DNA from: Thermococcus gammatolerans EJ3
GTDB taxonomy: Archaea > Methanobacteriota_B > Thermococci > Thermococcales > Thermococcaceae
DNA length: 64,000 nucleotides
Assembly (NCBI RefSeq): GCF_000022365.1
Contig: NC_012804.1
Location: forward strand, 124,001-188,000
Direction of reading: 5' to 3'
Numbering within the stretch: the stretch's first letter is position 1; every line of letters starts with the position of its first letter. The notes under the pieces were generated by a model that searched no databases, was not told the origin of the DNA, and worked only from the letters and a program-made list of their open reading frames with translations. Of this stretch, positions 41,523-46,030 are shown one piece after another. The position numbers and the translations under genes were made by a program.

Positions 41523-41579
41523 GCCTCATCACCGATAAAGATTTAACGCCCCATTGATTTAACTTTTTTGTGGTTGGGT

Positions 41580-42494
41580 ATGCAGGATGTCAATCCTGAT
41601 GAAATAGAACTGCTCGTTGAGCTGTTGAACAAGTATCCCGTAGAGAGTCTGAAGAAGATAGCCGAACTTGAGGGACTGGACTATCACAAACTCACTCGGA
41701 TCTATGACAAGTATTATGGTAAGTACGTTTTCGTTAACGCGATGTACGATATCAAAAAGATTGGCCTGAAGAGTTATATCGCTTACCTGTCCGTTCCCAG
41801 GGAGAGGCTTCGTGAGGTCGCCCTGAGGATGAAACAAAACCCCTTCTTTGTTGACATTACCGCAATGTTCGGTTTTAAAAATGGCATTACGGCAATCGTT
41901 TACGTCCCCAAGGAACAGGTTGATCTCCTCGATCAGGTGATGGAGAAGTATTCCGACGATTACGAGTACTACGAGGTCCGAGCTTACCCCCCTTCTGGCG
42001 ATGACAATTTTGGAGAGTGGAACCTTCCGTACCAGTACGCTATTTTAATGGACATACTCAAGTGGGACGCCAGAACGCCGCTCTCAGAGATCGCAAGGGA
42101 GCTCGGGAAGAGCAGGCCAACGGTGCGCTTCATGATCAGGACACTCCAGCACAGGGGCATTCTGCTCGGCTATATTGCCACCATCGAGAACACTGAACAC
42201 GATCGGGGGGTGACTGGAATAACGAGCGAATTAAACGAGGAGGTTCTCGAGAAATTCAAAGATTACGAGATAAACGTCGGCGTACTCGTTGGCAGAGGGT
42301 ATCTCCTTGAGTGGTACTTCTCATCAAAGGAGGATCTTGCCCAGAAGCTCTTTGAGTTCAGCGGTTACGTGGAGCAGCTTGGCATTGAGTACTTTGACCT
42401 CCTAGCGGACATAAAGGAGATGTACCCCAAGGAGAGGCTTAGAAGGATGGTAAGAAAGGACGGCGAGGGATACAGATCCATACTTGAATTTTAG
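41580..42494 (+). CDS. Two-domain winged-helix transcriptional regulator (Lrp-like)
   Basis: A 304-aa protein with an N-terminal HTH-like part (PVESLKKIAELEGLDYHKLTRIYDKY), an alpha-beta middle, and a second HTH (TPLSEIARELGKSRPTVRFMIRTLQHRG) followed by another alpha-beta domain. This looks like a tandem Lrp/AsnC-type arrangement of the kind frequent in Thermococcales. ATG 41580 is used; the longer TTG start has no ribosome site. Targets are unknown; the convergent SPASM gene overlaps by 4 bases. Confidence 0.8.
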   Translation: MQDVNPDEIELLVELLNKYPVESLKKIAELEGLDYHKLTRIYDKYYGKYVFVNAMYDIKKIGLKSYIAYLSVPRERLREVALRMKQNPFFVDITAMFGFKNGITAIVYVPKEQVDLLDQVMEKYSDDYEYYEVRAYPPSGDDNFGEWNLPYQYAILMDILKWDARTPLSEIARELGKSRPTVRFMIRTLQHRGILLGYIATIENTEHDRGVTGITSELNEEVLEKFKDYEINVGVLVGRGYLLEWYFSSKEDLAQKLFEFSGYVEQLGIEYFDLLADIKEMYPKERLRRMVRKDGEGYRSILEF

Positions 42495-43438
42495 AGCAGC
42501 GGGCAGTACTCGATTCCCCTTAGATCGCCGCTGGCCTGGTATTCGAGGGCCCTGCAGTCGTGGCAGATATACCTCAGCGGGCAGGTTGAACAGCCATCAA
42601 CTTTGTCCTTAGTCATGGTCCAGAACTCCCTAAGCTTTTTGCTCCTCCCAACGATCCACTTGAAGCTCTTTTCCCTGACGTCGCCGACGACCAGGTTCCT
42701 GAGGAGAGGACAGGGAAGTACGAAGCCGTCCCCGCTGACCGCGACGGTGCCTGCCAGGCAGTCGTGGTACTTGCTGGTGGTCGGATTGTTTATCTTTCTG
42801 AGCTCTATGGTGTTGAAGTCAAGGTGCCGGAGGGATCTTGGATAGAGAACGTCCACGTAGGCCTTAAAGTCACCATCCCCCTTGACCTTCTGGATGAACT
42901 CCTTTGCCTCGTTCACCTTATCCGGGGTCACCATAACAAGGATCCCCCGAATCCAGAGCCTCATGGCGGCAGAGATGATGGCTTCGGGGTCGTATTCGAG
43001 CTCAGCTATGTACTCCACACCGTCAAGGGGGCGGATTTTCTCAGCGTCTTCGAAGAGAAAGACGGCCCTTATCTCCTCGATGCCAACCTTGAAGGCCATC
43101 TCAACGGCCTCGTTAAGCTCCTCTGGGGAGTCGTAGTTGGTGATCCATACCTCGGTCCCACCCATGGATTTGAAGTCCCGGAGAATTTTCTCTATCTCCT
43201 CCCTCCCCAGCTTCTTCCTTCTCAGGACGAACCTGTTGTTCCCGATGCAGCCTATTGAGCGCGGAATCCCATAGAGCTCATTGAACCTGCCTCTGCCAGC
43301 ACCGAGCTGAAGAATAAGCCTCTCGACGCTTCCGGCGTGGGGTGTCTCGCTCCACGGGGGCTTTCCAACGACTATGTCCTCTACCCTCGGTTTGATCTCC
43401 TGTGTGGAGATGGTGCTAACCTTCACGATCTCCTCCAT
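42491..43438 (-). CDS. SPASM-domain protein with degenerate radical SAM core
   Basis: A 315-aa protein with a complete seven-cysteine SPASM domain: C227, C243 (CX10GX4C), C283, C286, C292, C295 (CX2CX5CX2C) and C312. The barrel before it looks like a radical SAM fold, but the CX3CX2C motif is absent: after the first strand LILQLG only one Cys (C64) occurs, and the GGEP site reads WITNYDS. It can bind auxiliary Fe-S clusters but should not cleave SAM. ATG 43438 follows GGTGGTGTTG; TATA AGTATATAAC is at 43471-43480 (reverse). Confidence 0.8.
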   Translation of the reverse strand: MEEIVKVSTISTQEIKPRVEDIVVGKPPWSETPHAGSVERLILQLGAGRGRFNELYGIPRSIGCIGNNRFVLRRKKLGREEIEKILRDFKSMGGTEVWITNYDSPEELNEAVEMAFKVGIEEIRAVFLFEDAEKIRPLDGVEYIAELEYDPEAIISAAMRLWIRGILVMVTPDKVNEAKEFIQKVKGDGDFKAYVDVLYPRSLRHLDFNTIELRKINNPTTSKYHDCLAGTVAVSGDGFVLPCPLLRNLVVGDVREKSFKWIVGRSKKLREFWTMTKDKVDGCSTCPLRYICHDCRALEYQASGDLRGIEYCPLL

Positions 43439-43533
43439 CAACACCACCGTAGAAGAGTACGCGTCCAAGAGTTATATACTTTTTCTATGCAGATTTCGCA
43501 CACTACTAGAAGTAGTTAGCAAAAATTGGAAAA

Positions 43534-43977
43534 CTAAGCTTTGTGGTAATCCTCGGGAATCGTTTGCTCGCCCTCGATCCAGAAGGTGCCCTCCTCGGTA
43601 ACCTCCTTCTTCCACACCGGGACCCTCTTTTTCACCTCGTCTATTGCCCATCGGCACGCGTCAAAGGCCTCACTTCTGTGTTTGGCGCTGGCCACAATCA
43701 GGATGGTGTCCTCTCCAACCTTCAGCTCACCGACGCGATGCCATATCAGCATGTCCAGGATGGGGAACTTCTCGAGGGCCTCTTTTCGGATTTTTTCCAT
43801 CTCCTTCAGGGCCATCTCCTCGTACGCTTCGTAGATAAGTTTTAGCACTCTCCTTCCCCTGTTCTCGTTTCTGACTTTTCCAAGGAAAACAACGTATCCA
43901 CCGGCCTCGTCCCTCTCCACGAGCTTTATGGCCTCATCAACGCTGAAGGGCTCTCCCGTGATCTTGACCTTGCTCAT
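43534..43977 (-). CDS. moaE: Molybdopterin synthase catalytic subunit MoaE
   Basis: It inserts sulfur from MoaD thiocarboxylate into cyclic pyranopterin to make molybdopterin, used for the tungsten cofactor in this group; 147 aa. GGYVVFLGKVRNENRGRRVLKLIYEAYEEMA, IWHRVGELKVGED and the C-terminal WKKEVTEEGTFWIEG block with the active-site Lys are clear. The start is ATG 43977 (GGTGGTTGAG); the frame extends to 44274, but that part is a shadow of the lipoprotein gene. No moaD is adjacent. Confidence 0.93.
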   Translation of the reverse strand: MSKVKITGEPFSVDEAIKLVERDEAGGYVVFLGKVRNENRGRRVLKLIYEAYEEMALKEMEKIRKEALEKFPILDMLIWHRVGELKVGEDTILIVASAKHRSEAFDACRWAIDEVKKRVPVWKKEVTEEGTFWIEGEQTIPEDYHKA

Positions 43978-44053
43978 CTCAACCACCGTTTTACCTTTGT
44001 CTTTCCCTTTAAGTATTTGCCCACAACATTTTTGAGGTCGGGGGAGAGGTTTA

Positions 44054-44932
44054 ATGGGTGATAAAGTGAGGGACAAGCTCATAGCCCTGGCCTTGGTTAT
44101 CATCGTTTTCACTTCGGGCTGTTTGATGGGTTCCAAGGACTCTTCCAGCTCCTCTTCGGGATCTTTCACATCGTCAACATCCCAAACCTCCTCAACGGTT
44201 TCTCCCTCAACCACTTCGTCTTCGTCCCATTTTACGACATCTTGGCCGGCTGAAACTCCAACGACAACGACCACAACGCTGGATTATCTGGCTGGTCTCC
44301 TCGATTCCCTGTCCAGAGTTTCTTCGTATCTGGCCCTCGTAAACACGACGATCAACTCAACCGTGCGGATTGAGGGGCAAGCCGTTGTCCGGGTCGAGAA
44401 CGTCTCGGTCTTCTCGAACTCGACTGCCTTCTACGATCTCTCAAACCGCCGGATGGAGGTAAACATGACCGTTCTTACGAAGCCAGCAGGTGCAAGGGTT
44501 CTCACGAGGATAATCCTCTTGGGGGACGTTGCAAGGGTCTATTCCCTCGGCGAGTGGAGGGAGTTCAGAAGGGGAGAAGATGGCTTCACAGTCATTGAAA
44601 AGACCTTTGAGTCGAATCCTCTGGCCCTAGCTTTGGAGGCCTCCAAGGATGGAAGCTGTCAGGTAACGAGGGGTAGGTACTACGTTCTCCACTGCACGAG
44701 CAAGAACGCCTTTGAGGAGCTGATAAAGTCCTCGGTTGGTGCTCCTGAGGGATCCGAAGTTTCAGTAACTCTGGGCAGGGTAGAAGTGTTTTTCCGCGAT
44801 TCTCAGCCTGTGGGGGGAAGGATAGAGGTTGGCTTCTCTGTTTCCACGACCTACACCGATGCCTCGGGAGAGACGTTTAGGCTAGTTCAGAGGGGAAAGA
44901 TAGTGGAAACCTTCACGGTTGTTCATACCTAA
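44054..44932 (+). CDS. Secreted lipoprotein-like protein with Ser/Thr-rich linker
   Basis: A 292-aa exported protein. A signal peptide with lipobox FTSGC (Cys about residue 23) is followed by a roughly 50-residue Ser/Thr stretch, likely O-glycosylated spacer, then a beta-rich globular domain with several N-glycosylation sequons and two cysteines in the C-terminal half (SCQV, HCTS) that could form a disulfide. No enzymatic motif was recognised. It resembles LolA/LppX-like or surface-exposed binding proteins only in general shape. It is divergent from moaE and overlaps the end of the ThiF gene by 4 bases. Confidence 0.8.
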   Translation: MGDKVRDKLIALALVIIVFTSGCLMGSKDSSSSSSGSFTSSTSQTSSTVSPSTTSSSSHFTTSWPAETPTTTTTTLDYLAGLLDSLSRVSSYLALVNTTINSTVRIEGQAVVRVENVSVFSNSTAFYDLSNRRMEVNMTVLTKPAGARVLTRIILLGDVARVYSLGEWREFRRGEDGFTVIEKTFESNPLALALEASKDGSCQVTRGRYYVLHCTSKNAFEELIKSSVGAPEGSEVSVTLGRVEVFFRDSQPVGGRIEVGFSVSTTYTDASGETFRLVQRGKIVETFTVVHT

Positions 44933-45624
44933 AGCTCAACGAGCTCGTAGACGTTGTGGGCGAGGTCGATTATCAGGAGTCTGTTGAAGAGCGGCTCCCC
45001 AAGGCCCGTTAGCAGCTTTATAACCTCCATAGCCTGAATCGATCCAACGACTCCGGCCGTTGGTCCGATTATCGGGAGCTTTCCCTTCTTTTCCTTCACT
45101 CTCGGGAAGATCTCTCTCAGTGTTTTCGTTTTTCCCGGTAATATTGTCGTCACCTGTCCGTAGGTTCCCTCCACTGCCCCATGCACGAGTGGCTTCCCAG
45201 TTCTCTTCGCGTAATCGTCCAAAAGGAAGCGTGCTTCAAAACTGTCGAGGCAATCAACTATGACGTCAGCGTCCTTCAGAACCTCGTCGATGTTCTCCTC
45301 GCTGAGTCTCACTGGTCTGGCCACTACCTCCACGTCCGAATTGAACCGTTCAAGCTTCCACTTTCCCGAAAGAGGCTTGGGTCTCGCTCCGAGATCCTCC
45401 TCCCAGTGGAGTATCTGCCTGTTCAGGTTGCTCAGCTCCGGCTTCTCGGAATCGATCAGCACTATTCTCCCCACACCCGCCGCCGTGAGATAGAGCGCGA
45501 CCGGAGAGCCGAGGCCGCCGACGCCGACGACTGCAACGGTGCTCCCCTTTAATCTCTCCTGTCCTTCAGTTCCGATTATCATTATCTGCCTGTTATACCT
45601 TTGAAGTTCTCTATCGGTGAGCAT
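44929..45624 (-). CDS. moeB: ThiF/MoeB family adenylyltransferase (E1-like)
   Basis: It adenylates the C-terminal Gly-Gly of a ubiquitin-like sulfur carrier (MoaD/ThiS/SAMP type), 231 aa. The nucleotide-binding VAVVGVGGLGSPVALYLTAAGVGRIVLID and LSNLNRQ motifs and VDCLDSFEAR are intact; the paired CxxC zinc motif of bacterial MoeB is absent. ATG 45624 is behind ATAGGTGGTCCC; the longer frame is not supported. With moaE it serves sulfur transfer to the pterin cofactor and possibly tRNA thiolation or SAMP conjugation. Confidence 0.88.
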   Translation of the reverse strand: MLTDRELQRYNRQIMIIGTEGQERLKGSTVAVVGVGGLGSPVALYLTAAGVGRIVLIDSEKPELSNLNRQILHWEEDLGARPKPLSGKWKLERFNSDVEVVARPVRLSEENIDEVLKDADVIVDCLDSFEARFLLDDYAKRTGKPLVHGAVEGTYGQVTTILPGKTKTLREIFPRVKEKKGKLPIIGPTAGVVGSIQAMEVIKLLTGLGEPLFNRLLIIDLAHNVYELVEL

Positions 45625-45661
45625 GGGACCACCTATCCCCTTAACACGTCCGACCTTATGA

Positions 45662-46030
45662 ATGTTGGGCAAACTTTTTGGGGGCCATTTCCAAGCTCAG
45701 ATGGTGAAGGGAGTGAAGTGGGATGAATTCGAGGGGCAGCTTCTCTCGGAGGGTTTCGTTGAGCTCGGGGATTTTAGGATAGAGCTCACACTGGACAACA
45801 CTTTCATGGATGTAGCGTACATCCCGAGGATAGCTGTGTACTCCAGGGGAAGGGACAAGTGGTACGTCCTGAGGAACCCGATAAAACCTGGAAATAAACT
45901 TGACGAGGGCTGGGAAAACGCCGTTAAGGTTCTCAGGGAAATACTAACAGGGTCTGCAGAGCCGGATTTTAACGATCCTGATCTTGAGAGGGAGTTCCTC
46001 GAAACGCTTAGGAGGCACGTTGAACCGTAG
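45662..46030 (+). CDS. Conserved hypothetical protein
   Basis: A 122-aa soluble protein with no recognised family. The middle is beta-rich ([25 protein letters not shown]) and the C terminus acidic-helical. ATG 45662 has no ribosome site; the promoter may overlap the divergent E1-like gene 37 bases away, so a leaderless transcript is plausible. An internal ATG at 45701 is an alternative start. Confidence 0.6.

Follow-up and report, generated by a model that had tools for sequence, protein, structure and literature searches.

A Thermococcaceae-wide SPASM protein without a radical-SAM cluster site, and its distant active relatives

What can a SPASM domain do in a protein whose radical-SAM cluster site is gone? 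The question is raised by a gene in a 64,000-nucleotide stretch of the Thermococcus gammatolerans EJ3 genome (the window, to which all coordinates refer unless a locus is named), the product of which, here SPASM protein T, was described in an earlier note as a full-length protein with its own promoter that had lost the CX3CX2C and GGEP motifs by something other than simple decay. The gene and its promoter are placed as follows.

42491..43438, minus strand: gene of SPASM protein T, 315 aa, including the stop codon (ORF, Pfam SPASM match and homologues)
43472..43478, minus strand: TATA box, own promoter of this gene (sequence; position conserved)

The reading frame begins with an ATG at 43438 and ends with a stop at 42491; the TTG at 43468 that appears in the ORF list was rejected as a start, as it falls within the promoter region. 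The TATA box, GTATATAAC, occupies the stretch 34-40 nt 5' of the ATG, and of 92 homologous loci, 74 have a TATA-like site upstream of the gene, in most cases at the same distance, compared with 43% in shuffled sequence. Full length and a promoter of its own are thus both borne out.

The CX3CX2C motif is absent from SPASM protein T and from all 93 distinct family members, so that its loss, as the earlier note had suggested checking, is conserved among the homologues. The Radical_SAM Pfam model (PF04055) matched neither SPASM protein T nor any of the 30 homologue N-terminal domains scanned, while it does match (4.1e-9) an active relative from a methanogen-like genome that is introduced below. 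Homologues are present in 92 of 94 Thermococcaceae genomes from six genera, among them each of the 74 whose completeness reaches 90% or more (the two genomes without the gene are 75% and 80% complete), and the gene is chromosomal and in most genomes single-copy. About 36 positions are invariant across the 93 distinct sequences, among them, beyond the cysteines, S61, G63, G66, N67, Y102 and D103, and dN/dS between SPASM protein T and its nearest homologue (92% identity) is 0.055. Judged from these sequences, the SAM site has truly been lost, and its loss is ancient and fixed, as it holds for 93/93 sequences and 6/6 genera. A missing superfamily-defining catalytic motif might be taken for the mark of a decaying pseudogene, or of a chance SPASM-like ORF, and real decay of single copies does occur in two genomes of genus g13 (G101 and G102, see below); this reading is nevertheless refuted by the conservation of the gene in 74/74 near-complete genomes, by its invariant positions and by its low dN/dS. 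Since the loss is old and fixed, and since strong purifying selection acts on the gene, which is full length and has a promoter to itself, we agree that simple decay does not describe it.

The domain that gives the protein its name lies at the C-terminus.

42503..42760, minus strand: SPASM domain, C227 to C312, with seven cysteines (Pfam, NCBIfam; ligands predicted by analogy with PapB)

It scores above the curated cut-offs of both Pfam SPASM (PF13186, 29.3 bits, cut-off 21.5, E 1e-6) and NCBIfam TIGR04085 (31.2 bits, cut-off 27). The cysteines are arranged as C227-X15-C243 (with G238-X4-C) and C283-X2-C286-X5-C292-X2-C295-X16-C312, and together with an eighth cysteine in the barrel, C64, they are invariant in the 93 distinct sequences, with the sole exception of C295, which is replaced by proline in one of them. 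All seven SPASM cysteines reported earlier are therefore present, but their spacing is not canonical throughout, as the last inner spacing is X2 instead of X3: the CX5CX2C of SPASM protein T is one residue short of the published consensus ending CX5CX3C (PMC6231123). Archaeal SPASM enzymes of related kinds normally show the shorter form, and so does the intact radical-SAM/SPASM paralogue encoded in the same genome. The best such paralogue in this genome is a 558-aa protein with both CX3CX2C and GGEP (L055:6787-8463, contig position ~796786). In PapB, the auxiliary cluster AC1 is held by three cysteines and AC2 by four (PMC10470005), and by analogy the predicted ligands in SPASM protein T would be C227/C243/C295 for AuxI and C283/C286/C292/C312 for AuxII. 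MoaA and CteB provide precedents for an open AuxI site that binds substrate (PMC6231123).

The N-terminal part of the protein was less readily placed. A sequence search of the PDB with SPASM protein T returned only SPASM-level or chance matches, and when the N-terminal domain was compared, profile to profile, with nine intact archaeal radical-SAM/SPASM proteins, the only match was short and weak (E 0.0018, prob 15%), albeit in the expected register, with LSxE...TNYD set against LSxE...GGEP. Structure prediction was more informative.

42845..43321, minus strand: residues 40-198, a degenerate barrel of radical-SAM type in which six parallel strands alternate with helices (AlphaFold, fold search)

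The AlphaFold model built from 93 family sequences has a mean pLDDT of 90.1 (mostly above 90 in the barrel) and a pTM of 0.88. A strand (residues 40-44) is followed by a long loop (45-78), a helix (79-91) and a second strand (96-100) that ends in TNYD, after which four further strand-helix units extend to residue 198, followed by the SPASM part. The best PDB fold match of an earlier, 30-sequence model was anSME (4k38, E 2.5e-4), and the best natural matches of the 93-sequence model were EpeE (8ai3, prob 0.99) and AbmM (8wm2), although a designed TIM barrel ranks above them. The E-values are modest (2.5e-4 and 5e-3), and both this and the designed top hit count against the explanation that we prefer below. 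Given the strand-helix order of the model and the radical-SAM enzymes among the best fold matches, the predicted fold, a partial (beta/alpha)6 barrel followed by SPASM, is nonetheless well supported as radical-SAM-like rather than unrelated. The barrel is indeed recognisable, as had been claimed from the sequence, yet it was recovered by structure prediction, fold search and a bridging homologue and not by sequence alone. Both anSME and EpeE resemble SPASM protein T in the predicted barrel and in a C-terminal auxiliary-cluster domain, whereas they possess the catalytic SAM cluster and share only about 12-13% identity with it. AbmM is a radical-SAM enzyme whose cluster donates sulfur (PMC12691670); we do not take the match to it as functional evidence for SPASM protein T.

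Three short stretches of the barrel mark the altered site.

43280..43303, minus strand: residues 46-53 (GAGRGRFN), aligned with the CX3CX2C loop of the active relative (BLASTP, multiple alignment, column counts)
43235..43270, minus strand: family signature G57-IPRS-IGC64-IGN67-N68, the equivalent of GIKRSLGCMGCN in the active relative (column counts)
43130..43141, minus strand: T100-N-Y-D103, replacing GGEP after strand 2 (column counts, profile comparison, model, BLASTP)

The lost cluster cysteines map to about residues 46-53; the exact placement of the gap is uncertain, but the absence of all three is certain. This loop is three residues shorter than that of the active relative, with G46 and G50 invariant and F52 near-invariant, the latter retaining the aromatic position that precedes the third cluster cysteine. 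Where GGEP would be expected, SPASM protein T has TNYD, of which Y102 and D103 are invariant in the 93 sequences, so that the reported loss of GGEP is confirmed as well. The signature IxRSxGCxGN is common to all 93 distinct sequences, with S61, G63, C64, G66 and N67 invariant; C64, which the earlier note had overlooked, is the only conserved cysteine left in the whole barrel. As C64 and a glycine-rich loop lie between strand 1 and helix 1, the canonical SAM-cluster region, one might suppose that the protein is still a SAM-dependent radical enzyme with a non-canonical cluster site. We consider this highly improbable: all three cluster cysteines and GGEP are gone, a single conserved barrel cysteine remains, and C64 belongs to a separate motif, because the active relative carries CX3CX2C and the C64 equivalent together. 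For the same reason we rejected C64 as the third cysteine of the lost CX3CX2C (G57-X3-S61-X2-C64). In the active relative it forms part of a second motif, CxGC, whose second cysteine corresponds to N67 here.

This relative also bears on the origin of the family. Searching with a profile of the N-terminal domain yielded exactly one full match in another archaeal phylum (locus L144, E 1.1e-9), in genome G238, which reads as methanogen-like from the presence of a ComA-type gene. The protein (L144:10176-11330, 384 aa) was the sole full homologue to emerge among archaea other than Thermococcaceae; elsewhere in the class, in 16 genomes from a second archaeal phylum and in 397 from another, the profile search had no full match, negative results that are weak evidence in each case. 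It aligns with SPASM protein T over 292 aa (BLASTP 3e-23) and shares with it the GI-RS-GC-GCN signature, in the form GIKRSLGCMGCN, and the SPASM pattern CxxC...CxDCRALE, but differs in its intact CX3CX2C (residues 104-111), some 90 extra N-terminal residues, the second cysteine in GCMGC, and a RiPP-type operon. That operon (L144:8381-13003) is of sactipeptide type: a Cys-rich 55-aa ORF (..FCRACRCSCSCGWW..), the precursor candidate, lies upstream, and the relative stands between a CcpM-like radical-SAM/SPASM maturase before it and an ABC exporter after it, being the second radical-SAM/SPASM protein of the operon, with the extra CxGC motif. A comparable order is found on plasmid pRUMAL03 of Ruminococcus albus 7, where two huazacin-family peptides are followed by a radical-SAM protein, WP_013483961.1 and an ABC transporter. 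WP_013483961.1 matches the G238 relative at 3e-39 (BLASTP), and through this methanogen protein its lineage is tied to that of SPASM protein T, with which it shares the CxGC motif and SPASM; it differs in having CX3CX2C intact and in belonging to a cluster of sactipeptide type that also encodes an exporter and an active radical-SAM maturase. Although annotated as hypothetical, WP_013483961.1 (L145:4989-6230) has CX3CX2C at residue 119 and a SPASM-type cysteine pattern, by which it is probably an unannotated radical-SAM enzyme. The thuricin Z/huazacin cluster comprises two precursor copies and the radical-SAM enzymes ThzC and ThzD, each of which can form thioether links (PMC8172795). Homologues with an intact CX3CX2C, which could have pointed to recent decay, hence do exist, but only at great distance (24% identity; another archaeal phylum and Bacillota), which argues for an ancient loss instead.

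SPASM proteins without a radical-SAM site already have names in NCBIfam (GwsS, TIGR04347, TIGR04150). The best NCBIfam match of SPASM protein T is GwsS (TIGR04193), which matches all 30 members scanned (best 7e-18); at 50.3 bits SPASM protein T lies far under the equivalog cut-off of 175 bits. The two Elizabethkingia GwsS proteins that we read likewise lack CX3CX2C, but GwsS retains the N-terminal part and is encoded alongside a peptide-modifying ATP-grasp enzyme, whereas no ATP-grasp peptide ligase adjoins the gene studied here, whose neighbours are moaE, moeB, a regulator, an adenosine-specific kinase and a Ham1 pyrophosphatase. The families TIGR04347 (haloarchaeal pseudo-SAM/SPASM), TIGR04150 (pseudo-rSAM) and TIGR04304 (GeoRSP SPASM) are, by name, without a working radical-SAM site; TIGR04150 and TIGR04304 weakly match SPASM protein T over SPASM and TIGR04347 weakly matches the active relative, but the similarity is confined to SPASM, and lineages and contexts are others. 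New is a family-wide, chromosomal, RiPP-independent pseudo-radical-SAM example with a traceable active relative. A same-class SPASM protein in genome G048 (L129:1065-2063) has an altered cluster motif, KCAACALEC in place of CX3CX2C, with GGEP intact.

The genome neighbourhood bears on the possible pathway.

43534..43983, minus strand: moaE, molybdopterin synthase large subunit, co-directional upstream neighbour (Pfam 1.3e-40)
44929..45672, minus strand: moeB/thiF-type E1 enzyme (Pfam 1.2e-64)
41568..42494, plus strand: Reg3, convergent winged-helix regulator (Pfam HTH), whose stop overlaps that of the SPASM gene by 4 bp

About 90 bp separate the SPASM gene from moaE, which precedes it, and on its other side it converges with the gene of the 308-aa Reg3, usually with overlapping stops; the kinase and pyrophosphatase genes and an Lrp-type regulator come after these two, and in many relatives moaD and moeB also lie upstream. 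Four genus groups retain the adjacency to moaE, and one of them is g12, in which the flanks are otherwise rearranged, moaE alone stays adjacent and Reg3 is present but far away; in g11 and g15 the adjacency to moaE is lost and Reg3 alone stays adjacent. No exporter recurs beside the gene across genera. In Reg3, the winged-helix match covers the second half only, the N-terminal half having no Pfam match, and in genome G009 the gene is split into two frames. TK2118 and TK2117 are the moaD-type and moeB-type genes of T. kodakarensis, in which Ubl deletions lower molybdopterin derivatives and AOR/FOR activity (PMC11323500). None of the papers searched mentions TK2113-TK2116, the tags expected for this region.

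The earlier note had proposed to look for co-occurring radical-SAM paralogues, and no active one is encoded beside the gene: in Thermococcaceae loci the SPASM gene adjoins neither a radical-SAM gene nor a precursor peptide, the latter because the short gap to moaE and the overlap with Reg3 leave no room. This weighs on the reading that the protein donates electrons to, or binds peptide for, an active radical-SAM enzyme from another locus, as its non-catalytic partner, as does the absence from SPASM protein T of the N-terminal part common to its RiPP relatives. On the other hand, the closest active relatives (methanogen-like genome, R. albus) are each encoded next to a second radical-SAM/SPASM maturase, which is CcpM-like, the genome of SPASM protein T contains at least one intact radical-SAM/SPASM paralogue, and PapB is documented to transfer electrons between proteins via its second auxiliary cluster (PMC10470005). 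We regard such a partnership as doubtful, though worth keeping in mind.

Genus g13 has two diverged versions of the SPASM gene, deeply separate in the tree, one at the moaE site and the other beside Reg3, and both are found in three genomes. G104 has only the Reg3-linked version, and between its moaE and kinase genes there is just an empty site of 300 bp (L139:4741-5043); in G101 the moaE-linked copy is broken into three frames (L052:7810-8660); in G102 the Reg3-linked copy is broken, and Reg3 too (L117:3127-4242); and seven genomes have the moaE-linked version only. Every near-complete g13 genome nevertheless retains at least one intact copy, and this alternating loss is our strongest argument that the function is indispensable and supplied by both versions. 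The same genus bears on whether the protein, rather than an enzyme or a carrier, might be a redox or Fe-S sensor acting with Reg3. In most loci in which the two genes are adjacent, their stop codons overlap or come close to touching, and in g13 Reg3 occurs only where the regulator-linked version exists, both being intact in G098, G100, G101, G104 and G105, broken in G102, and absent from G097, G099, G103 and G106-G109. Joint loss is, however, to be expected of adjacent genes anyway, and since the SPASM gene is kept in seven g13 genomes without any Reg3, and in g12 with Reg3 far away, the protein can work without this regulator. We hold a role as sensor to be improbable.

While the fold and history of SPASM protein T are well supported, its function is a matter of inference. 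The reading that we favour, with a probability of roughly 0.4, is that of a Thermococcaceae-wide Fe-S protein that derives from a RiPP-type radical-SAM/SPASM enzyme and acts in a SAM-independent manner. Its ancestor would have been a peptide-modifying enzyme. The comparison with the active relatives shows that the SAM-cluster site (the cysteines and three residues of the loop), the strand motif GGEP and ~90 residues at the N-terminus have been lost, that the barrel, all seven SPASM cysteines and, from the second CxGC motif, C64 have survived, and the protein is retained under strong selection by every near-complete genome. The SPASM domain would hold two [4Fe-4S] clusters, a fully ligated AuxII and an AuxI with three cysteines and an open site that may be filled by C64 or by substrate, while the former SAM pocket, lined by the invariant G46, G50, R60, S61, N67, Y102 and D103, may bind something else. 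The protein might then serve as an electron-transfer or a substrate-holding/scaffold component, and from the genome context, with moaE and in many genomes moaD and moeB adjoining, tungstopterin/sulfur-carrier metabolism is the best first guess for its pathway. Against this explanation, the loss of moaE adjacency in g11 and g15 means that the arrangement could be inherited synteny instead of function, and the SPASM gene has a promoter of its own. A bolder version, which we put forward as speculative and rather unlikely as a whole, is that a sactipeptide-type maturase was domesticated in the Thermococcaceae ancestor into an indispensable SAM-independent Fe-S protein of tungstopterin/sulfur-carrier metabolism, AuxI being completed by C64 or substrate and the SAM pocket having taken on a new ligand.

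It is chiefly as oddities within peptide-modification cassettes that pseudo-radical-SAM proteins are known. In the present case a whole archaeal family has such a protein encoded on the chromosome, in a gene that seems never to disappear unless a substitute exists, and a distant living relative still has the catalytic site; SPASM protein T is therefore a clear test of what SPASM is capable of without SAM chemistry, in a family that includes organisms with good genetics, T. kodakarensis and P. furiosus.
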